Shown here piece by piece: positions 789-21,859 of a stretch of DNA of 27,046 nucleotides. The stretch's first letter is position 1. Each line of letters opens with the position of its first letter. The translations under genes and the position numbers were made by a program. This DNA is from a virus, in the IMG/VR virus record IMGVR_UViG_3300025411_000066, positions 1 through 27,046 of that record; one strand, written 5' to 3'. Below the pieces are notes generated by a model, which was given only the letters and a program-made list of their open reading frames with translations, was not told the DNA's origin and ran no database searches.

Positions 789-2903
789 ATGGCTGCTCCT
801 TCCAACTCTACTGTTCAAAATCTTGTACCTATTCAGGGTCTTTTCGACACTTCAGGTAATTTTCAAACATTTATTGGTCAGGGGCAGCCTTTCTATGCCA
901 TTCCAAACCCTTATCAATCAGGGTTGCACATCACAAATAGCACAATTGACAGTACAACAATTGGGGCTACAACACCGTCAACAGGTGTTTTTTCAGCAGC
1001 GCAAGTCAATGCCACTCCTGTTGGCATTTATGACGTAACGAACAAACAATATGTAGATGCTGCGATTGTCGGCATTTCATGGAAGCCACCGGTTAATTAC
1101 GGAACTGTTAACAATGTGACCCTTTCAGGCTTGGGTACACAAAGTGGTGGTGATTGGCCTAGCGCATTGACATCAGGAATGCGTGTGTTGGTCAAAAATC
1201 AGTCTAACCAACCTGATAACGGCATTTATGTGGTTGCATCGGGCGCTTGGGTGCGTTCTGCGGACACAAACACATGGAACGAGCTAATATCAGCTTTGGT
1301 TTTTGTTGAATCGGGCAACACTTTGGGTGGGTCGGCTTGGTACTGTGCAGCACAATTAGGTGGCACATTAGGCACAACCAACGTCACATGGTCTAACTTT
1401 AGCGTTGCAGCTACTTATACGGCAGGAACAGGCTTAACTTTAAGCAACTATATATTCAGCATTACCAATACTGCGGTCACGGCAGGTAGCTACGGTAGTG
1501 CTTCAAGCGTACCAACTTACACCGTTAATGCTCAAGGTCAGTTGACGGCAGCTTCAAACACATCTATTTTGATTGCCAACACTCAAGTTACAGGCTTGGG
1601 TACGATGTCAACGCAAAATGCGTCATCTGTGGCAATTACTGGTGGCACGATAACTGGTCTATCTGCTGCTATTCCTGTGGCTTCAGGAGGCACAGGAGCG
1701 ACCACATTGACAGGTTATGTCAAAGGCACAGGAACATCGGCTTTAACAGGCGCTACAACGATTCCTAGCACCGATATTACTGGCCTTGGCACAATGTCAA
1801 CGCAGAATGCGAACAACGTTGCTATAACTGGTGGTTCAATTACAGGTTTGTCTTCTTCTTTGCCTGTGGCATCAGGTGGTACAGGCGCATCGACATTAAC
1901 AGGTTATTTGTCAGGTAATGGCACAGGCGCTTTTACGGCTAGTTCAACCATTCCAAGCTCTGTAATTAGCGGTCTTGGTACGATGGCTACACAAAATGCA
2001 AGTAGTGTTGCCATCACAGGAGGAACGATTAACGGTTCTTCAATTGGTGCAACAACAAGAGCAAGCGGTGACTTCACCACTTTGTCGGCTAATACAGTTA
2101 CAAGTACCACACCTGTTTTAAGTTTTAACGCATCAAATTCAATTGCAACATTTGGTAGCACAACTTCAGGTTCTTATAACCAATTGGTTATTCAGAATAA
2201 GAGTACAAGCGCTAATGCATCAGCTAACTATGTAATTTCTAACGACCAAGGCACAGACTCATCATATTATGGTGAGTTTGGCATGAATTCATCGACTTTT
2301 AGCGCATCAACACCTAGCGATTTTTATTCAATCAATAATGGTGTTTATTTCTCGGGTCATGATGGTGATATTACTGTTGGATCAGGAAATGGTTACAAGC
2401 ATTACATGGCTTGGGGCACAACAGGACAATCAGCTCACGTTATCAATGCAGTTGGTGCATTAGGGTTTACCACTAATTTAGGTACAACACCTGCGTTAAG
2501 TGGCACAACAGGTTATGGAACATCAGGTCAAACGTTAATTACCGCAGGTTCAACAGGTGCGCCATCTTGGGGTACTTTAGGAATTAGTGGAGGTGGAACA
2601 AATGCTACGACTACTCCTACTGCTGGCGCTATTGCCTATGGTAATGGTTCTGCTTACGCATTTACTGCTGCCGGTACTACTGGACAGGTTTTAACCTCAA
2701 ACGGATCAAGCGCACCTACATGGTCAACTCCTGTGGCTTATGCGACCGTGACGGACGATACGTCAACTAACGCAACTCGATATTTGTTGTTTGCAAATCA
2801 GACAACAGGTAATTTGACAACTGAATACACCAGTTCGACTAAACTTCAATTTAACCCTAGCACCGGAGCATTGACCTCTGGTAAACTCATCATATTGCCA
2901 TAA
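789..2903 (+). CDS. Repeat-containing tail fibre-like protein
   Basis: The product has 704 residues. Residues 1-95 form a non-repetitive N-terminus that may attach to the tail. Residues about 98-205 resemble a domain widespread in phage fibres, with RVLVKNQ at 132-138 and NGIYVV at 144-149. A segment typical of tail fibres (AGSYGSASSVPTYTV near 232-246) follows. Three tandem units of about 63 residues then begin with GLGTM and TQNA at residues 269, 332 and 396 and contain PVASGGTGA-like cores. The rest is Gly/Ser/Thr-rich beta sequence. The composition suits a trimeric fibre shaft. The C-terminus lacks an obvious chaperone or enzymatic domain, and two further fibre-like genes follow, so the host-range tip may be split across several polypeptides. 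Confidence 0.85.
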   Translation: MAAPSNSTVQNLVPIQGLFDTSGNFQTFIGQGQPFYAIPNPYQSGLHITNSTIDSTTIGATTPSTGVFSAAQVNATPVGIYDVTNKQYVDAAIVGISWKPPVNYGTVNNVTLSGLGTQSGGDWPSALTSGMRVLVKNQSNQPDNGIYVVASGAWVRSADTNTWNELISALVFVESGNTLGGSAWYCAAQLGGTLGTTNVTWSNFSVAATYTAGTGLTLSNYIFSITNTAVTAGSYGSASSVPTYTVNAQGQLTAASNTSILIANTQVTGLGTMSTQNASSVAITGGTITGLSAAIPVASGGTGATTLTGYVKGTGTSALTGATTIPSTDITGLGTMSTQNANNVAITGGSITGLSSSLPVASGGTGASTLTGYLSGNGTGAFTASSTIPSSVISGLGTMATQNASSVAITGGTINGSSIGATTRASGDFTTLSANTVTSTTPVLSFNASNSIATFGSTTSGSYNQLVIQNKSTSANASANYVISNDQGTDSSYYGEFGMNSSTFSASTPSDFYSINNGVYFSGHDGDITVGSGNGYKHYMAWGTTGQSAHVINAVGALGFTTNLGTTPALSGTTGYGTSGQTLITAGSTGAPSWGTLGISGGGTNATTTPTAGAIAYGNGSAYAFTAAGTTGQVLTSNGSSAPTWSTPVAYATVTDDTSTNATRYLLFANQTTGNLTTEYTSSTKLQFNPSTGALTSGKLIILP

Positions 2904-2912
2904 GGAACTGAA

Positions 2913-3509
2913 ATGGGACAACTCGTTTTTCAAGCAACTTTAGGAGGGGCAATTAACCTTAGTGGCCCCAATACGGCTTCTACGGTAACTTTTACGCTTC
3001 CAAGTGCGGACGGTTCTAGCGGTCAAGTTATGCAAACCAATGGAGCAGGATTGCTTTCATTAGGTAACGTTTCATTGACATCTGCGGTGACAGGCACATT
3101 ACCTGTTGCAAACGGTGGAACAGGAACAACTACATCTACTGGAACTGGTTCAGTAATGTTAAATAGCGCACCAAGTGTTACCAATCCAACTGTTACCAAT
3201 TACACGGAAACACTTTATACGGCAAACACATCAACTGCAATTACTGTATCTTTAGCAAATGGAACAGTTCAACAATTAACTTTGACAGGTAACGCAACAA
3301 TTACTATGCCTACTGCTAGTGCTGGTAAATCATTTATCATTATGCTTAAACAAGATGGAACAGGTTCAAGAACTGTTACATGGTCAACTGTCGTTTGGGG
3401 CGGTGGTACTGCACCAACAATTACATCAACTGCATCAAAACAAGACATTTATTCGTTTTTTAGCGATGGAACAAATTGGTATGGTGCAACTATTGGGCAG
3501 AATTACTAA
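2913..3509 (+). CDS. Short tail fibre-like protein
   Basis: The 198-residue protein is preceded by AAGGA with good spacing. It shares the ATLGGAINLSGPN and LPVANGGTGTTT type of glycine/threonine motifs with the larger fibre upstream, followed by a beta-rich C-terminal half ending in the aromatic motif DGTNWYGATIGQNY. That ending recurs in phage fibre and receptor-binding proteins as I remember them. It lies between a shaft-like and a LamG-containing fibre gene. The stop codon overlaps the next ATG as TAATG, indicating translational coupling. The exact role (tip, connector or receptor binder) is not determinable from sequence. Confidence 0.75.
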   Translation: MGQLVFQATLGGAINLSGPNTASTVTFTLPSADGSSGQVMQTNGAGLLSLGNVSLTSAVTGTLPVANGGTGTTTSTGTGSVMLNSAPSVTNPTVTNYTETLYTANTSTAITVSLANGTVQQLTLTGNATITMPTASAGKSFIIMLKQDGTGSRTVTWSTVVWGGGTAPTITSTASKQDIYSFFSDGTNWYGATIGQNY

Positions 3510-5521
3510 TGTTTAGCGCATCTAAATCAGGATTATCAAGCGTACCTGATCCTCAATTTAATTACGTTACTGCTTTATTGCATGGTGATGGAACTAATGG
3601 CGCACAAAATACATCTTTTGTAGATGGTTCTACAAACAATTACACAATTACCACTTATGCAAATGTAACTCAAGGTTCATTTAGTCCTTATGGTAGTTTG
3701 TGGAGTAATGTTTTTGGGAATAGTTCCAATTTGACATTTACTGGCACAACTGCCATGTCTTTTGGAACTGGTGATTTTACTATTGAAGCATGGGTTTATA
3801 AAACTGCAACAACTGGTGATTATGCAATTATTGATTCTCGTGCAACAGGAAGTGGTGAACCTTGGTATCTTTGGATCGTATCCAATAATTTGCAGTTTTA
3901 TACTGGAAGCAACACATTAACATCTAGCAATTCAATTTCATTAAATACATGGACTCATGTTGCAGTTAGTAGAACATCTGGTGTTTTAAAACTTTTTGTT
4001 GGTGGTGTACAAGGTTATAGCGCTTCAAATACAGACACAATCAATGTGACTGCAAATACTTATATTGCCTCTAGAAATGATGGTGTTGGTTCTTTTCAGG
4101 GATATATATCAAATTTGCGTATTATAAAAGGTACTGGAATTTATACTTCTGCTTTTACACCGCCAACAACTCCATTGACTGCTGTAAGCGGTACACAATT
4201 ATTAACTTGTCAGTCAAATCGTTTTATTGACAACAGTTCAAATAATTTTACTTTAACTGTTGTTGGCACACCATCTGTTCAAAGATTTAACCCATTTTTA
4301 CCGACATCATCACAAGCATATACCACAAGTGTTTATGGTGGTAGTGAATATTGTGACGGAAATCAAAGTTATGTTTCAGCTCCTGTAAACGCTGGATATT
4401 TTGGAACAGGAAATTTCACTATTGAATGTTGGGTATATCCAACTACAATTTCAAGTTCAAGCAATGTAATTGCAGGTATTTGGGAAGATTTAGGACCAGC
4501 TCATCAGGCTTGGATTTTAGTTATTGGGTCATCTGGTCAATTACAATTTTCCATCAATGCTAGTTTAAGTGGCCCAAATATCACGATTTTTAGTGGTGCA
4601 ACAAATGATATTAGATTAAATCAATGGCAACACATTGCTATAACTCGTTCAGGAAATAATTGGTACAAATTTATCAATGGTAAATTATCTGAAAGCACGA
4701 CAAATACAACTTCTATTTACAATAGTGCAGGATATTTAGGTGTTGGGTATTATTATCATCAAGTTAGTACAGGAGCATACATCGGGTATATTTCAGATTT
4801 TAGAACTGAAATAGGTACTGCGGTTTACACATCTGCTTTTACTCCTCCTACTGCACCTTTGACCGCAATTACAAATACATCACTGCTTTTAAATTTTAAA
4901 AACGCTGGCATTTACGATAATGCCATGATGAATGATTTCATTACTGCTGGATCAGCGCAAATCAGTACAAGTGTTAAAAAATATGGTACTGGTTCGTTAA
5001 GTTTTAATGGTTCTACTGATTTTTTAGTTCAAACATTTAGACCTTTTATGTTGTGGAATTCAGCAAATTTAACAATTGAATTTTGGATTAACACAACTAG
5101 TAGCACTCAATACGCTACTATATATTCAAATACACAAGCGTCATTCAGTACAGGGATGTATTCATTGATGATAAATAGTCAATCGACTACTTCTGGTGAT
5201 GTAACATTATTTGTAAATGAATATTCATCTGCAACTCCTTTGATAGTAACCACAAGTAATAGTGTGCGAGATGGAAATTGGCACCATGTTGCAATGGTTA
5301 GAAATGGGTCTTCTTGGGTTATTTATGTTAATGGTTTAAGCAGTGGTACAGGAACATTTTCTGGTTCTATAACTGCAACAACTTACCCTGCAAATATTGG
5401 TTCTGACCCATTTTATTCAAGAAATTTTGGTGGTTATATTGATGATTTTAGAATAACGTATGGATATGCTAGATACACATCCAACTTTACACCACCAACA
5501 TATGCTTTCCCCAACTATTGA
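3509..5521 (+). CDS. Fibre/receptor-binding protein with three LamG-like domains
   Basis: The start is placed at the ATG overlapping the previous stop (TAATG), giving 670 residues; an upstream in-frame start would add 11 residues inside the previous gene. Three concanavalin A/LamG-like jelly-roll units lie at about residues 75-220, 280-450 and 490-665. Each carries a FTIE(A/C)WVY- or LTIEFWI-like strand, a W-x-H-x-A motif and a GYI-DFRI-like strand. Each ends in a YTS-FTPPT sequence, showing internal triplication. Such folds bind carbohydrates or proteins, so the protein probably contacts the host surface. The codon use is more AT-rich than that of the first fibre gene, which may reflect exchange of receptor-binding modules. 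Confidence 0.85.
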   Translation: MFSASKSGLSSVPDPQFNYVTALLHGDGTNGAQNTSFVDGSTNNYTITTYANVTQGSFSPYGSLWSNVFGNSSNLTFTGTTAMSFGTGDFTIEAWVYKTATTGDYAIIDSRATGSGEPWYLWIVSNNLQFYTGSNTLTSSNSISLNTWTHVAVSRTSGVLKLFVGGVQGYSASNTDTINVTANTYIASRNDGVGSFQGYISNLRIIKGTGIYTSAFTPPTTPLTAVSGTQLLTCQSNRFIDNSSNNFTLTVVGTPSVQRFNPFLPTSSQAYTTSVYGGSEYCDGNQSYVSAPVNAGYFGTGNFTIECWVYPTTISSSSNVIAGIWEDLGPAHQAWILVIGSSGQLQFSINASLSGPNITIFSGATNDIRLNQWQHIAITRSGNNWYKFINGKLSESTTNTTSIYNSAGYLGVGYYYHQVSTGAYIGYISDFRTEIGTAVYTSAFTPPTAPLTAITNTSLLLNFKNAGIYDNAMMNDFITAGSAQISTSVKKYGTGSLSFNGSTDFLVQTFRPFMLWNSANLTIEFWINTTSSTQYATIYSNTQASFSTGMYSLMINSQSTTSGDVTLFVNEYSSATPLIVTTSNSVRDGNWHHVAMVRNGSSWVIYVNGLSSGTGTFSGSITATTYPANIGSDPFYSRNFGGYIDDFRITYGYARYTSNFTPPTYAFPNY

Positions 5522-6302: not shown

Positions 6303-6457
6303 AAGAGGTAAAACTAGAGCTTACTGTCGAAGAATTACAACTTATTGCTGGCTCATTGCGAGAACTGCCTTATAAAGTTGTTGTGAACTTACTTCAAAAA
6401 ATTGATAGACAAGTAGTACCACAACTGCAAGAGGCACAAAATGACGGCCCCAATTGA
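6299..6457 (+). CDS. Small hypothetical protein (52 aa)
   Basis: The frame starts at the ATG overlapping the previous stop and ends inside the following gene. It encodes 52 residues with the core [20 protein letters not shown] followed by [10 protein letters not shown]. This looks like a compact helical domain, and I recall comparable ELTVEE-LPY-LI-KI proteins in other phages. It overlaps the gp4-like gene by 17 bases, and the GAGG that serves as the ribosome site of that gene lies inside this frame, suggesting coupled expression. The function is unknown. Confidence 0.65.
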
Positions 6458-7424
6458 TTTCATTACTCGTGCGCTAAAAGACATCGGAGCATTAGAAGCT
6501 GGCGAACAACCCACTCCTGAAGCTGCACAAGACGCTTTTGATATGTTTAACGATCTTGTTGACCAATGGTCTAACGAGAACGGCATGGTCTTTAACGTCA
6601 CAGAGATCATTTTCCCTGTTATTGCAGGTCAAGTTCAATACACGATTGGACCAACCGCATCTAGCCCTAACTTCATAGGCGCATCGTTTACAGGATCAAT
6701 CGTAGGAAACATCTTAACGGTTACTGGTATTGCATCGGGGGCGGTTGCTCAAGGTCAAACGTTGTCGGGTACAGGCATATTGCCTGGCACTAAGATTGTC
6801 AGATTTTTAACTGGCGCAGGTGGAAACGTCAATGAAGCCGGTACGTATGAGGTTAACTTTAACCAAACCGTAGCGTCCACAAGCATTACGGCTTACTACC
6901 AAAAGCCACTCAACCTTAATTCTGCGTTTGTTAGGATAAACACCTATTCCAACGGTCAACCCATCACAAATGGTGGTTTAGATTACCAAGTTGACGTTTT
7001 AACGCTTCAGCAATACGAGTTGATTGGCTTAAAAACGCTTAACGGTCCTTGGCCTAAAGCAGTTTACTACAACCCAAATCAAGACTCAGGCAACGTTTTT
7101 GTGTGGCCTAACCCTGCACAGGGTGAAATGCACATTTTTGCCAATACATTGTTCAGTAGATATGACTCAATGTATGACACGGTAAGTATGCCCCAAGGCT
7201 ATAACATGGCCTTCAGGTGGTGTTTGGCAGAGCGTTTGATGCCTATGTATGGCAAATCAGATCAAGGCCAAATGGCGATGATTACAAGCTACGCAGCACA
7301 AGCCAAGGCTACGCTGAAACGCACAAATATTGCACCGTTGCAAGTTGCTCAATATCCTGACGCATTGATGATTGGCAGGGCCAAGGATGCTGGTTGGATA
7401 TTGACCGGTGGATTCATGAGGTAA
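6441..7424 (+). CDS. P22 gp4-like tail accessory factor
   Basis: The product has 327 residues. The N-terminus ([19 protein letters not shown], then [12 protein letters not shown]) and the C-terminal region ([19 protein letters not shown]) match the P22 gp4 family, which attaches below the portal and closes the head for tail assembly. Residues about 82-152 form a Gly/Thr-rich beta module ([17 protein letters not shown], then [12 protein letters not shown]) inserted into the family core. The same module type occurs twice in the next gene. P22 gp4 itself is about 166 residues, so the extra length comes partly from this insert. The start is supported by GAGG ten bases upstream. Unlike in P22, no muramidase signature was visible to me. 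Confidence 0.9.
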
Positions 7425-7428
7425 AGCC

Positions 7429-9423
7429 ATGCCTGACTTTGGATTTGTCGGCCCAAGTTATGAGGCCCCATCTATTTACCAAGATGCTCAAGAATGTATC
7501 AATTTTTTTCCTGAGATTGATTATTTAAAGCAACAGGGTGATAGAGGGGTTGTTGCGCTTTATCCAACACCAGGACTCACCACAAAGGCCATTCTGCCCA
7601 ATTTCCAAGAGGTAAGGGGTATGCGTACCCTTTCGGGCGGTAATCAAATGGTGGCGGTTTGTGGGCCTTACGTTTACGTTTTATCGTCTAACCTAGTTCC
7701 TGAAGTTATTGGCTTGCTGAACACCTCTTCAGGTCGTGTTGGGATTAGCGATAATGGGGTAAATGCTTACATTGTGGACGGTGCTTATCGTTACACATGG
7801 CGCATTTCTAGCCCTAACCAAGCCGTATTTGTTGGTTCAATTAGTGGTACGGTTTTAACTGTTACTGCGGTGTCTAGCGGTACGATTGGCATCAATCAAT
7901 CATTATTTGGTGTTGGTGTTACTGCTGAGACGATTATCACTAGCTTGGGAACAGGCACAGGTGGTATTGGTACATATAACCTTAACCTGTCTCAAACAGT
8001 ACCGGCAGGATCATTAAACTCTGCTGCTATTGGCACGATTTTTACAGGCACAATCGCAGGTTCTGTGTTGACGGTCACTAGCGTCACATCAGGTAGCATT
8101 TACTTGGGTCAGACGGTTCAAGGGCCTTATTTGCCTGTTGGAACGGTAATTGTGTCTTATGGCACAGGTGGTGGTGGAACTGGTACTTACAACATCAGTA
8201 CATCAGTAACCATAGCATCACCTGAAACAATGTATGGGCTTAACTTTTCTGTTTTGTCAAATTCTGATGGTGCTTTTTCAGGTGGCACATCGGTCGACAT
8301 CGTAGACAACTATTTTGTTTACTCACGTCCTAATTCTCAATGGTGGGGGGCATCTGACCTTTTGTCTCCCATTTCACCTCAAGCATCTTATAGCTTGAAA
8401 GACGGTGCGCCTGATAATTTGGTGGCTTTGATTGTTGACCATCGAGAAGTGTATTTAATGGGTGAACAGTCATCTGAGGTATGGAATGATGTAGGCGCAG
8501 TACCTTTTCCGTTTCAGCGCATACCAGGCACATCTACCCAACACGGCATTGCAGCTCCTAATTCACTAGCTCGTGTAGGTAATTCATTCGCTTATGTAAG
8601 CAGAAACAACCGTGGTCAAGCAGAAATCATGCAAATGAGTGGGTATATTCCACAACGCATTTCTACTCATGCGGTTGAGAACACATTGGTTAATCAAGTC
8701 ATCAATGATGCGGTTTCTTGGACCTATCAACTAGAAGGTCATGAAATTTATGTCGTTACCTTTCCTAGCATTGGAATTAACGGCATAACATGGGCTTATG
8801 ACTCAACCACTAATATGTGGCATAAGTGGCTATATTGGACAAACAATTACGAGCGTCACAGAGGTAATTGTTGTGCGGTGTTTCAGAACATGGTTTTGGT
8901 TGGTGACTATTCCAACGGAAAAATCTATATGTTGGACAAGACCAATTACACGGATGATGGCAACACAATTAGAAGATTAAGACGTGCTCCACATTTGGTA
9001 AGTGACTTGCAACGTCAATATTTTGAAGAATTGCAGATTCAATTTCAACCTGGTGTTGGAACATCAGGCTTGTGGTTTAACAATCCTACTTATTCACCTA
9101 ATCCAACAGTTATCACAATTGCACCTGACCAAAGTTTAGCGATTGGCCCTAATGAAACATTGATTATTGGATTCAATTCACAACAAAATCAATTGGATCA
9201 AACGACTAACCCACAAGCGATGTTGAGATGGTCAAATGACGGTGGTTCTACTTGGTCAAACGAGCATTGGGTTTCTATTGGACCTTTGGGTAAATATAAA
9301 AATCGTGCCATTTGGAGACGATTGGGTTGGTCTAGGGATAGAGTGTTTGAGGTTGTCGTTAGCGACCCTGTAAATGCGGTGATTGTTTCTGCTAATTTAA
9401 AAGCTAAAGTGGGGACAAACTAA
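7429..9423 (+). CDS. Packaged DNA stabilisation protein, P22 gp10-like
   Basis: The 664-residue product follows the gp4-like gene after four bases. It starts with FVGPSYEAPSIYQDAQECIN and contains, in its C-terminal two thirds, the family landmarks VDIVDNYFVYSRPNSQWWGA, EVYLMGEQSSEVW, IPGTSTQHGIAAPNSLAR, YQLEGHEIYVVTFP and a VGDYSNGKIYMLD strand. P22 gp10 assembles on gp4 to form the tail hub that retains packaged DNA and carries spikes. Two tandem beta modules at about residues 134-197 and 204-264 are inserted in the N-terminal portion and explain the length above the roughly 470 residues of P22 gp10. The stop overlaps the next start (TAATG). Confidence 0.92.
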   Translation: MPDFGFVGPSYEAPSIYQDAQECINFFPEIDYLKQQGDRGVVALYPTPGLTTKAILPNFQEVRGMRTLSGGNQMVAVCGPYVYVLSSNLVPEVIGLLNTSSGRVGISDNGVNAYIVDGAYRYTWRISSPNQAVFVGSISGTVLTVTAVSSGTIGINQSLFGVGVTAETIITSLGTGTGGIGTYNLNLSQTVPAGSLNSAAIGTIFTGTIAGSVLTVTSVTSGSIYLGQTVQGPYLPVGTVIVSYGTGGGGTGTYNISTSVTIASPETMYGLNFSVLSNSDGAFSGGTSVDIVDNYFVYSRPNSQWWGASDLLSPISPQASYSLKDGAPDNLVALIVDHREVYLMGEQSSEVWNDVGAVPFPFQRIPGTSTQHGIAAPNSLARVGNSFAYVSRNNRGQAEIMQMSGYIPQRISTHAVENTLVNQVINDAVSWTYQLEGHEIYVVTFPSIGINGITWAYDSTTNMWHKWLYWTNNYERHRGNCCAVFQNMVLVGDYSNGKIYMLDKTNYTDDGNTIRRLRRAPHLVSDLQRQYFEELQIQFQPGVGTSGLWFNNPTYSPNPTVITIAPDQSLAIGPNETLIIGFNSQQNQLDQTTNPQAMLRWSNDGGSTWSNEHWVSIGPLGKYKNRAIWRRLGWSRDRVFEVVVSDPVNAVIVSANLKAKVGTN

Positions 9424-10019: not shown

Positions 10020-12266
10020 ATGTACGGTTACGTTGATGAAAGCGGAAATATTGGTGTTGGCGATACAGGAGCTGGTGCTACAAGCGTCAACGGTTCAGTA
10101 GACACTAGCGGTCTAGGTGGATTGCTTGGTGGTGGTGGCCTTGGCACAGGTTTGTCTTTGTCTGCTCTTGGCGCATTGTTGGGAACATACGCTAATCAAC
10201 AAGGTATTTCTAAAGCATCTGATCTAATTAACAATTATGGTGGTCAGGCTTTACAAGGTTTGAACAACACAATTAACGGTCAGATTGCACAAAACCAAGG
10301 TAATCGTGCTGATTTGTATAATGCAGCGCTTTATGCTCAAAATGCCCTTACCAACAACTTAGGTAATCAATACAACGCTTATCAGCAAGGTAATCAGCAA
10401 TTTGGAAATACTGCTGCAAATTACGGTAATCAATTAACCAATAACCTAAACAACCAATATGCCAACTACAACGCTGGTAATCAGTTGTTTGGTAACACGG
10501 CTGCTAACTATGGCAACCAACTAGGACAAAATTTAGCTAATCAATATGCTACTGGCAACCAAGCCAATCAAGCATTTGGAAACGTTGCAGCAAATTATGG
10601 CAATCAATTGTCTAACAATTTGGCTTCACAATTTGGTTTAGGTGGTGCAATACAAAATAATTTGTATGGAAACCAAGCTAATGTTGCAGGTCAAATGGGC
10701 AACATCTTAGGTCAACAACAAGGTTATGCAAATCAAATTGGTGGTGAACTAGGTGGTAATACCGCACAAGCTCAAGGCGCATTAAACAATGCTTTGAACA
10801 TGGCAGGTAACGCAACCAATCAAACTGCTCAAAATATTGCCCAAAATGCGGGTCAAGCACAAGGTGTTTTAAGTGGTGTTTATGGTAACCAACAAGGCCA
10901 AGCTAGTGCAAACCAAGCAAACCTTTTAGGAAACTATGGTGCTACACAAGGTCAACTTGGTAACATCTACAACCAACAATTAGGTTTCCAAACACCATAT
11001 CAACAAGTCGGAACTACTGGTTCTCAGGCTTTGTTGAACAATATGGGTTATTTGCAAAACCAATTCAATGCAAATGACCTTAATGCCAATTTAGCACCTA
11101 ACTATCAGTTTAGCTTGCAACAAGGCCAAATGGCTAACCAAAGAGCTGCCAATGCTATGGGTGGTGGATTTGGTGGTAATGCGTTGGCAGGGTTGAATCA
11201 GTACACTCAAGGTTACGCACAAAACGCTTATCAAAATGCGTTTAACAACTACCAAGCACAACGTCAAAACATTTACGGCAACCTTGCAGGTTTGGCAGGT
11301 ATTGGTAACACAAGCGCAGGACAAATCACAAGTTTAGGTAACACATTAGGTTCTAACTTGGGTAGCTTGTCATCTGCTTTAGGTGGTAATTTAACTAGCA
11401 ATACAGGTAACTTGCTTGGTGCTGGTACGGCTTACGGTGGAAACCAAGCTAACTTGGCATCATCATTAAACAATGCTTTGGTTAGCAACACAGGTAATTA
11501 CTTGGGTTCTGTTAATCAATATGGTGCTAATACTGCTGGTTTGGCTAATGCTTTGAATAGCGCCATCAACACAAACGCAGGTCAGTTGCAAAATGCAGCA
11601 ACAAACTATGGTTCTAATCTTGGATCATTAGGTCAAAACTTAGCTAGTAACCTTGTATCTAATGCCGGTCAAGTGCAAGGCGCTGCCAATCAATATGGTG
11701 GAAACTTAACAAGTTTAGGTAATACTTTAACAGGCGCTTACGGCACAAATTACGGTAACTTAATTGGAGCAGGAAACCAATACGGTGCTAACACCACAAG
11801 TCTAGGTAATGCTTTAACAAGTGCCTATGGTACTAATTTAGGTAACTTACAAAACGCTGCCAACCAATATGGCGGTAACGTAACCAATTTGGGTACAAAC
11901 CTAAATTCATTGTATGGTTCTAATTTAGGTAATTTATTGAGTGCTGCTAACCAATACGGTGGTAACCTTTCAAGTTTGTCTAATACTTTGGGTGGTAACC
12001 TCACATCAGGCTCTAATGCTTTGTTGGGTGCAGGTTCACAATACGGCACTAACTTGGCATCGTTGGCTACTGGATTGGGTGGCGCACAAGCTCAAAACGC
12101 TATTGCATCTGCTAATGCAAACGCAGGTGCTTTACAGTCTATTGGCAACACCGCTTTGTTGGGTTCTATTTTAGGAAACAAACAATCTAGCGGTGGCGGT
12201 GGAGGTGGGGGCGGTGGTAGTTTACTGAACACCATTGGTAATATTGGTAGCTTTTTAGGCTTTTAA
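10020..12266 (+). CDS. DNA ejection protein (P22 gp7 / 'DNA transfer protein' type) with repeats
   Basis: The 748-residue product is extremely rich in Gly, Asn, Gln and Ala. Around residues 355-430 it carries the pattern LAPNYQFSLQQGQ, then GGGFGGNALAGLNQYTQGYA and AYQNAFNNYQAQRQNIYGNL. I associate this pattern with phage DNA transfer proteins ejected into the cell with the genome. An N-terminal glycine-rich hydrophobic stretch (residues 31-60) could insert in membranes. Residues about 90-200 and 440-700 consist of degenerate repeats, the latter with a period near 29 residues built on NQYGGN and LGNxL. The C-terminus has nine consecutive glycines before a hydrophobic tail. The next two large genes are likely its ejection partners. 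Confidence 0.8.
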   Translation: MYGYVDESGNIGVGDTGAGATSVNGSVDTSGLGGLLGGGGLGTGLSLSALGALLGTYANQQGISKASDLINNYGGQALQGLNNTINGQIAQNQGNRADLYNAALYAQNALTNNLGNQYNAYQQGNQQFGNTAANYGNQLTNNLNNQYANYNAGNQLFGNTAANYGNQLGQNLANQYATGNQANQAFGNVAANYGNQLSNNLASQFGLGGAIQNNLYGNQANVAGQMGNILGQQQGYANQIGGELGGNTAQAQGALNNALNMAGNATNQTAQNIAQNAGQAQGVLSGVYGNQQGQASANQANLLGNYGATQGQLGNIYNQQLGFQTPYQQVGTTGSQALLNNMGYLQNQFNANDLNANLAPNYQFSLQQGQMANQRAANAMGGGFGGNALAGLNQYTQGYAQNAYQNAFNNYQAQRQNIYGNLAGLAGIGNTSAGQITSLGNTLGSNLGSLSSALGGNLTSNTGNLLGAGTAYGGNQANLASSLNNALVSNTGNYLGSVNQYGANTAGLANALNSAINTNAGQLQNAATNYGSNLGSLGQNLASNLVSNAGQVQGAANQYGGNLTSLGNTLTGAYGTNYGNLIGAGNQYGANTTSLGNALTSAYGTNLGNLQNAANQYGGNVTNLGTNLNSLYGSNLGNLLSAANQYGGNLSSLSNTLGGNLTSGSNALLGAGSQYGTNLASLATGLGGAQAQNAIASANANAGALQSIGNTALLGSILGNKQSSGGGGGGGGGSLLNTIGNIGSFLGF

Positions 12267-21005: not shown

Positions 21006-21156
21006 TGAGTTCCTTAATTCTTTGGGCAATGAGTTTGCCTATTCCATGAAAAGCAGGTTCTTGTTCCATTAGCTTAACTTGTTGACGAACATAGTCAAGC
21101 CATGCAGGTTTAATGGCTAATTTGGCATAGTGATCGACAATCAGTTCAATCTTCAC
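20986..21156 (-). CDS. Small helical protein with GTG start (56 aa)
   Basis: The frame starts at a GTG lying inside the last codons of the methyltransferase gene (11-base overlap) and ends 20 bases inside the RusA gene. The 56 residues read as a helical, charged protein (KIELIVDHYAKLAIKPAWLD, then QQVKLMEQEPAFHGIGKLIA). I recall small phage proteins of the HYA-LA-P-W-D type near replication and nuclease genes. The GTG begins immediately after the stop of the alternative methyltransferase frame. Function unknown. Confidence 0.6.
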   Translation of the reverse strand: MKIELIVDHYAKLAIKPAWLDYVRQQVKLMEQEPAFHGIGKLIAQRIKELNADRHV

Positions 21157-21859
21157 TTAGGATATTCCATGCTGTTGCCGCACAAAGTGGGACTTGTCCA
21201 TTTCCAATGGCTTTAAGTCTGTCCACTCTAGAGGCCATCCCATCAGCCACTCTGTCCAAGTTGGGTTCAGCTTGCCACCATTGTGCAGACCCGAAACTTG
21301 TTCCCCAAGATTTCCTTTTCCCCTGTCTCTCAATGCGTGTCTTGAATCTTGAGCTTTTGGAGTTCCCCAAACATGAGTAAATCCAGATTCTTTCGCGTCT
21401 ATGGTTTGCACCAATGTCGGCAGCAGATATAACTCCCCACCTACTGTCATACCCCATTGCGGTAAAGTCTGCAAGGACTCGTTCAAGTCCTCTAGTAACG
21501 AGCATTGGACTGTTCTCCACAAATGTGTATTTGGGTCGTATTTCGCCAATAATCCTTGCCATTTCTCGCCACATTCCTGATCGTTCTCCATCAAGTCCAT
21601 CTCCGTTTCCTGCAACTGAGATATCCTGGCATGGAAATCCTCCCGATATAACGTCAACAATTCCTCTCCAAGGTTTTCCATCAAAGGTTTGAACGTCATC
21701 CCAAATCGGGAAAGGCGGGAGAAGTCCGTCATTTTGTCGGGCGCACAATACGCTTGCTGGGTATGGTTCCCATTCGACTGCACAGACTGTTCGCCATCCA
21801 AGCAAATGTCCCCCAAGTATTCCTCCACCAGCGCCTGCGAATAAAGCCAACTCATTCAT
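21146..21859 (-). CDS. C5 cytosine-specific DNA methyltransferase
   Basis: The product has 237 residues and the canonical motif order: I LFAGAGGG (6-13), IV GGFPCQDIS with catalytic Cys77, VI ENS (115-117, usually ENV), VIII HRRERIWI (153-160) and X AIGNGQVP (217-224). It is short: only about 35 residues separate motif VIII from the C-terminal AEPNLDRVADGMASRVDRLK segment, so the target recognition region is compact. It methylates cytosine at C5, probably protecting phage DNA from host restriction. There is no cognate restriction enzyme nearby. Its ATG overlaps the stop of the replication gene. An alternative frame covers nearly the whole gene. Confidence 0.92.
   Translation of the reverse strand: MNELALFAGAGGGILGGHLLGWRTVCAVEWEPYPASVLCARQNDGLLPPFPIWDDVQTFDGKPWRGIVDVISGGFPCQDISVAGNGDGLDGERSGMWREMARIIGEIRPKYTFVENSPMLVTRGLERVLADFTAMGYDSRWGVISAADIGANHRRERIWIYSCLGNSKSSRFKTRIERQGKRKSWGTSFGSAQWWQAEPNLDRVADGMASRVDRLKAIGNGQVPLCAATAWNILSED
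21157..21855 (-). CDS. Overprinted ORF inside the methyltransferase gene, candidate dual coding
   Basis: A second open frame of 232 residues starts four bases after the methyltransferase ATG and stops one base before the GTG of the next gene. Its product carries FGMTFKPLMENLGEELLTLY, then KYDPNTHLWRTVQCSLLEDL, QTLPQWGMTVGGELYLLPTL and LNPTWTEWLMGWPLEWTDL. I recall LNP-W-EWLMG-P-WT proteins as recurrent annotated phage proteins. Here that motif is exactly the shifted reading of the methyltransferase RVADG-RVDRLK segment. It is either a real overprinted gene or a conserved shadow frame; the function is unknown. Confidence 0.45.
   Translation of the reverse strand: MSWLYSQALVEEYLGDICLDGEQSVQSNGNHTQQAYCAPDKMTDFSRLSRFGMTFKPLMENLGEELLTLYREDFHARISQLQETEMDLMENDQECGEKWQGLLAKYDPNTHLWRTVQCSLLEDLNESLQTLPQWGMTVGGELYLLPTLVQTIDAKESGFTHVWGTPKAQDSRHALRDRGKGNLGEQVSGLHNGGKLNPTWTEWLMGWPLEWTDLKPLEMDKSHFVRQQHGIS

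Follow-up and report, generated by a model that had tools for sequence, protein, structure and literature searches.

Ig-like domains were reportedly described by Fraser et al., in 2006 and 2007 (work cited in PMC13033339), in the capsid, tail and fibre proteins of phages, on the outside of the virion. In the accessible part of PMC13033339, Ig-like domains of phage Douge, produced recombinantly, attach to the host surface, and the part of PMC10684548 available to us documents the shuffling of domains in proteins of neck and tail. Additional domains are also found on the tail propeller: the nozzle tip of T7 gp12 leaves it at blade 3, and the blade that bears the tip makes inter-subunit contacts as well (PMC6702177), the crAss001 muzzle carries IG2 at blade 3, and blades 1-3 of the SU10 nozzle lie away from the axis. 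Among adaptors, those of T7, KP32 and SU10 possess a fibre dock domain and those of P22 and Sf6 do not, as far as the accessible text of PMC9509320 extends.

Here we describe a small beta module from the tail of an uncultured short-tailed phage. Its presence in many unrelated phage structural proteins suggests a reusable surface part that has no name yet and is akin to phage Ig-like domains. The window, by which we mean the whole stretch of DNA analysed (27,046 nucleotides, IMG/VR record IMGVR_UViG_3300025411_000066), contains adjoining ORFs for a gp4-like and a gp10-like protein, the former with one module of about 66 residues and the latter with two in tandem:

6441-7424, plus strand: gp4-like head-tail adaptor, 327 residues, with one module (PHROG 12985, E 9e-37; PHROG 637 (Ad3), E 0.032)
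6597-7145, plus strand: adaptor beta domain, residues 53-235, split by the module (from DSSP; apparently of fibre-dock type when compared with T7 and SU10 adaptors)
6678-6887, plus strand: module in the gp4-like protein, residues 80-149 (HMM domain E 4e-26)
7429-9423, plus strand: gp10-like head closure/nozzle protein, 664 residues, with two modules (PHROG 578, E 4e-93)
7786-8256, plus strand: predicted gp10 insertion site, with the blade 3 strands at residues 120-125 and 273-276 flanking the modules (DSSP strand count)
7822-8013, plus strand: module a of the gp10-like protein, residues 132-195 (HMM domain E 4e-26)
8032-8226, plus strand: module b of the gp10-like protein, residues 202-266 (HMM domain E 2e-21)

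The three copies proposed in the first-pass annotation are present, with boundaries that agree to a few residues. Pairwise identities among them are 30/71, 31/68 and 29/59 aligned columns, and their local scores of 134, 146 and 150 were never reached by shuffled sequences (maxima of 74, 79 and 79 in 2,000 shuffles per pair); a search of the window's own record, including with the module HMM, found no fourth module. The suggestion that the module interrupts a family core also holds for both proteins, since PHROG matches flank it in each (PHROG 12985/637 in gp4, and PHROG 578, "head closure Hc3", in gp10) and relatives exist without the insert, in alignment with which it forms a clean extra segment.

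Other features of the window deserve mention. Upstream of gp4, positions 3476-5521 encode a protein with three Laminin_G_3 (concanavalin-like) matches. The product of positions 10020-12266 has 748 residues, is rich in Gly, Asn and Gln, and weakly matches the DNA ejection family PHROG 598. On the minus strand, at 21146-21859, two same-strand frames are open over nearly the same 700 bases and both match phage DNA methyltransferase PHROGs (363, E 5e-64; 1008, E 3e-23), a case of possible overlapping coding in which Pfam DNA_methylase is matched by the first frame only.

The AlphaFold2 model of the gp10-like protein, built from 70 sequences, has a mean pLDDT of 89.2, with the modules among its best-scoring parts, and that of the gp4-like protein a mean of 84.0. 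Predicted strands occupy residues 78-99, 107-109, 118-124 and 134-152 in the gp4 module, 131-150, 157-161, 169-175 and 181-200 in gp10 module a (block pLDDT 89-96), and 203-221, 229-231, 240-244 and 252-270 in gp10 module b (block pLDDT 93-97). The module is thus confidently predicted to consist of two strands of about 20 residues enclosing two short ones, and this single pattern, common to the copies in both proteins, argues against unrelated folds. Around the modules, the gp10-like core is of the P22 gp10 type, a seven-bladed propeller plus platform belonging to PHROG 578 (Z 38.2 and rmsd 2.6 over 445 aligned residues against P22 gp10, 8eap_D; Z 37.9 against Pan3 and 34.1 against Pam1). The gp4-like protein is a P22 gp4-type adaptor in which the helical adaptor core is present (Z 14.5 over 112 aligned residues against P22 gp4, 9pgg). 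It also matches T7 gp11 (7ey7_M; Z 11.0, rmsd 5.7, 171 residues aligned) and the SU10 adaptor (7z47_B; Z 9.0, rmsd 4.2, 196 residues aligned), so that more of its residues align with the T7 and SU10 adaptors than with P22 gp4, and it has a beta domain at 53-235.

Local matches of the module itself, drawn from whole-protein structural hits, are middling (Z 6.2-6.5 over 65-74 residues), and such values may reflect simply a common arrangement. They include the domain II beta-barrel of eEF1A (Z 6.2-6.4, sequence identity 5-7%) and 8eci_1, a chain of 124 residues from Arthrobacter phage Bridgette that scores highest among the phage proteins locally matching the gp4 module (Z 6.5, 65 residues aligned, identity 22%). 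From its size, this chain is probably the Bridgette capsid cement protein; in the accessible part of PMC13033339 these cement proteins are dimeric. No carbohydrate-binding or Ig domain occurs among the 50 structural matches listed per model, which are ranked by whole protein.

Reading blades from DSSP as four-strand units, and taking blade 1 to be completed by the first strand, which is the arrangement in T7, a strand count on the monomer model assigns residues 62-96 to blade 2, 105-125 plus 273-276 to blade 3, 289 to 466 to blades 4-7 and 479-503 to the remainder of blade 1. By this count, rather than by superposition, the gp10 insert is predicted to lie in blade 3, after its third strand and before its fourth, and at the corresponding position of the alignment P22 gp10 has a short turn alone. 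The gp4 insert would lie in the adaptor beta domain, for which comparison with the T7 and SU10 adaptors suggests a fibre-dock type. The monomer model and published relatives most likely place the modules on the tail exterior. Lateral contacts between gp4 and gp10 through their modules, one of the roles raised in the first-pass annotation, would be unlikely, provided that the gp10 pair exits the propeller distally as the T7 tip does.

The distribution of the module among relatives agrees with it being an addition to existing proteins: the segments are missing from some close relatives, and so are not integral to all members of the families. MW202520 and MW202674, whose gp10 is about 60% identical to that of the window in tblastn, carry the gp4 insert and not the gp10 insert, and neither insert is found in MW202557, Rhodoferax phage P26218, MW202483, DSL-LC05 or Vibrio phage 1.184.A. 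In the gp4-like protein of Xanthomonas phage PBR31, an insert at the same site was missed by the HMM, and profile comparison (74% probability, 37 columns) suggests that it is perhaps a distant module copy. The gp4-like adaptors of MW202520.1 and MW202674.1 are annotated as "portal protein".

We scanned IMG/VR three times, taking the best 80 matches of each scan, which do not form a random sample and include some loci that are the same contig twice. Giving copies as (gp10, gp4), the best 80 loci of scan 1 comprise (2,1) 73 times, (2, not covered) four times, (2,0) twice and (2,3) once. Scan 2 yielded 74 new loci among its best 80, with gp10 carriers distributed as (2,1) 39, (2, not covered) 2, (2,2) 2, (3,2) 1 and (4,1) 1, and loci with a module-free gp10 as (0,1) 23, (0,2) 5 and (0,0) 1; a gp4 copy without any gp10 copy is therefore found in 28 of these 74 loci. 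The best 80 loci of scan 3 are (0,0) in 73 cases and (0, not covered) in 7. All gp4 zero counts of scans 1 and 2 (L050, L080 and L113) are contig-end gp4 fragments, of 69, 87 and 131 residues. At the level of distinct proteins, 222 gp10 proteins of at least 440 residues carry no copy (116), two (104), three (1) or four (1), and never exactly one; 204 gp4 proteins, fragments included, carry none (78), one (117), two (8) or three (1). Four related IMG/VR records searched whole contain 2, 3, 3 and 3 copies. A frame or assembly artefact is ruled out, because the pair recurs in 104/222 distinct gp10 proteins.

Other parts of gp10 vary too. A second variable site, at residues ~543-592 (window ~9055-9204) and with low pLDDT in the window's model, has 29-93 extra residues in 111 of the 222 distinct proteins; these extra residues occur also in 20 module-free proteins. 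Other segments, which differ in sequence, lie between or inside the gp10 modules of three loci (L136:4001-6256, L143:4001-6121, L165:2933-5326), and the blade-3 site seems to collect inserts.

The P22 particle contains 12 gp4 and 6 gp10 subunits. We considered 12 gp4 copies facing 6 x 2 gp10 copies as a reason for the presence of one module in the former and two in the latter, an idea that is weakened by a lack of covariation; off-pattern (gp10, gp4) pairs among the carriers of the best-80 scans are (4,1) and (3,2), each once, (2,2) twice and (2,3) once.

A tree built on the gp10 core alone (204 representatives) unites all 95 gp10 carriers in one clade with support of 0.96 and no non-carrier inside, and carrier state changes once on this tree, against 67.5 changes expected with shuffled labels. 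The 117 representatives with a gp4 copy at their locus sit in a larger clade of 125, at a node of modest support (0.72), and the rest of that clade consists of three negative gp4 fragments and five representatives in which gp4 is not covered. It follows from these clades that the gp4 copy was gained first and the gp10 pair once, later, with no loss seen. In a tree of the modules, the gp4, gp10a and gp10b copies group separately, with 20 label changes where 200 shuffles average 111; several deep nodes of this tree are weak, which bears on whether the gp10 pair derives from the gp4 copy. Pooled over pairs with a core pS of 0.05-0.55, which are not independent and make the values descriptive, dN/dS is 0.111 in the gp10 modules vs 0.081 in the core (114 pairs), and 0.082 in the gp4 module vs 0.065 in the core (214 pairs), and the median module/core pN ratio is 1.34 for gp10 and 1.27 for gp4. 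The modules are conserved under purifying selection, changing at about 1.3 times the rate of the core. A rapidly varying receptor-binding part is ruled out by the dN/dS of 0.08-0.11. Consequently, the description of the module as "mobile" in the first-pass annotation survives in part: copy numbers of 0-4 and many unrelated host proteins agree with it, but within the clade the module is old, vertically inherited and unlost.

In searches of 50,697 phage records with tblastn, a single gp10 module found nothing at 1e-5 and the gp10 tandem, with E values as high as 1 admitted, a single partial match, although low-complexity masking and divergence may hide matches of the gp10 modules. Modules from other host proteins matched six records each (MW202520, MW202674, MW202545 and three Sinorhizobium phage records), and two further module queries matched two records each, with one match, in a DNA polymerase gene, probably due to chance. 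In the Sinorhizobium phage records the protein with the module is annotated as a tail fibre protein. So few isolate records matched that the module appears to be uncommon in isolates, and it is frequent in IMG/VR. Among GTDB genome contigs, 94 stretches match module seeds and 19 loci were confirmed. The families counted here, from L248-L251, L253-L258, L260, L261, L265 and L266, include the tail sheath PHROG 205 (L248, L251, L257, L266; three also match DUF3383), PHROG 1876, the gene preceding the sheath (L251, L257, L266), the minor head PHROG 2122 (L256, where the protein holds two copies), the baseplate wedge PHROG 6 (L255), the structural PHROG 687 (L265), fibres (L249, L260, L261) and a Big_1 protein (L250). 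Two loci (L254, L258) have no PHROG match outside the module stretch, and L253, compared with Pfam only, has no Pfam match. On viral contigs the module is found additionally in structural PHROG 3287 (L273), in fibres and in a spike-like protein, and BFVD models of collagen-like Indivirus proteins and of an HK97 major capsid protein match it locally. Judging by these family matches, the host proteins of the module are mostly virion proteins, of prophages as well as of phages unrelated to one another.

The sheath and its preceding gene both carry the module in contigs of Mesorhizobium, Paraburkholderia elongata and an Elusimicrobia MAG (L251, L257, L266), and sharing between gp4 and gp10 therefore says little on their contact. 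The idea of one module, present or absent in relatives and spread across many phage proteins, is borne out, whereas its sharing by two interacting proteins, the key point of the first-pass annotation, is not supported as the distinguishing feature: the module occurs just as well in proteins of the sheath, minor head, baseplate and fibres, the gp4 copy stands alone in the 28 scan-2 loci mentioned above, and copy numbers vary independently.

Existing family resources do not name the module. In Pfam, neither the two whole proteins nor 13 single modules have a significant family (best module E 0.049-0.18), four whole proteins scanned against NCBIfam gave no match, and a PDB sequence search with the module gave chance-level matches only. 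PHROG 21413 and PHROG 38233 (tail fibre) match each of the three modules at E 3e-9 to 2e-13; these contain the module stretch, but are whole-protein families named after other parts, in which the stretch has no assigned function. Searches with module consensus peptides found no paper, and no description of the module occurs in the titles and abstract openings, mostly from outside the subscription literature, on propeller insertions, the P22 tail, Ig-like domains, decoration proteins and freshwater podoviruses.

We propose, with a probability of roughly 0.45, that this is a promiscuous, self-contained beta module of exposed loops whose likeliest job is weak, multivalent contact with the envelope. 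Phages would place it in loops of exposed beta domains, as they do with Ig-like domains, with one copy in the fibre-dock-type domain of the adaptor ring and the tandem pair in blade 3 of the nozzle ring. With the stoichiometry of P22, collar and distal face would bear 12 modules each, and their weak envelope contact, probably with a glycan, would steady the tail while fibres and needle act. A role like that of Ig-like domains is favoured because the module is small, confidently predicted to fold, promiscuous in virion proteins, erratic in distribution and sometimes tandem, and carbohydrate binding, also suggested at the outset, would be plausible by analogy. Retention and slow evolution of the module fit a structural part and an adhesin alike, and in a part facing the receptor one might look for more variation than the module shows.

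The main rival, serious though less likely, is that the modules form a structural clamp, joining neighbouring subunits of the same ring and stiffening collar and tip, with the gp10 pair as a built-up nozzle. The absence of loss after gain and the strong purifying selection agree with a clamp, as do the very high pLDDT of the gp10 pair (block means 89-97), its predicted position on the same blade as the T7 nozzle tip, which is a site of inter-subunit contacts too, and the resemblance of the gp4 module to Bridgette 8eci_1, by size probably a capsid cement. However, fibres, the spike-like protein and the Big_1 protein, in which ring contacts would be senseless, carry the module as well, and copy number in gp4 is not tied to that in gp10. 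Docking of the phage's own fibres or spikes seems improbable. The gp4 copy does split a domain of apparent fibre-dock type, adaptor and nozzle of SU10 and T7 dock fibres (in the accessible parts of PMC9509320 and PMC6702177), and fibre-like and lectin-like genes lie closely upstream (789-5521), yet many module-bearing proteins are not known to dock fibres, the SU10 and T7 fibres are docked through other elements, and the family manages without, given that, of the 116 distinct gp10 proteins that lack the module, none contains a different insert of at least 25 residues at the gp10 site. A tolerated selfish segment, spread by recombination without benefit, would account for the wide and erratic host range and for occasional tandem gains (two or three gp4 copies in 9/204 and three or four gp10 copies in 2/222 distinct proteins), but is very improbable, being largely refuted by retention (0 losses among 95 gp10 carriers, dN/dS near 0.1).

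Returning to weak envelope contact as the preferred reading, one may speculate, although we consider it rather unlikely, that a P22-type tail without a nozzle tip gained an adhesive one in a single step, through insertion of the tandem module at blade 3, where nozzles of T7 and crAss type bear tip domains that are unrelated to it. In that case, 12 tip modules would have joined 12 older ones on the adaptor ring, a needle-type tail would have acquired an adhesive tip, and the building block of this tip would be one that sheath, capsid, baseplate and fibre proteins exchange.

Beside the phage Ig-like domains, the module would represent another family of exchangeable surface units, one that has no name and extends to the best conserved components of the particle (adaptor, nozzle, sheath and minor head). 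With its profile, loops that probably lie on the outer surface could be flagged in many proteins of uncultured phages, and it offers a small expressible domain for envelope-binding tests. Like the Ig-like domains, it is a small beta unit inserted in or added to proteins of unrelated phages with an erratic distribution, but no Ig profile passes, it contains a Gly-Thr-rich turn and its predicted strand layout is another; its likeness to EF-Tu/eEF1A domain II (Z 6.2-6.4) comes without a Pfam or PDB sequence match. The proteins of the window share their core folds with those of P22, Pam1 and Pan3 and add the modules, and the window's adaptor appears to have a fibre-dock-type beta domain, which P22 gp4 does not. 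A parallel in position is provided by the T7 gp12 tip, the SU10 nozzle domains and crAss001 IG1/IG2, extra domains that exit distally at or next to blade 3. These are described as other folds, whereas here the addition is a tandem of a widely used module, and the exit from the propeller shared with the T7 gp12 nozzle tip is one of position, by strand count, and not of homology. Blade 3 of the tail propeller would be a recurrent insertion point at which unrelated phages grow tail-tip domains.
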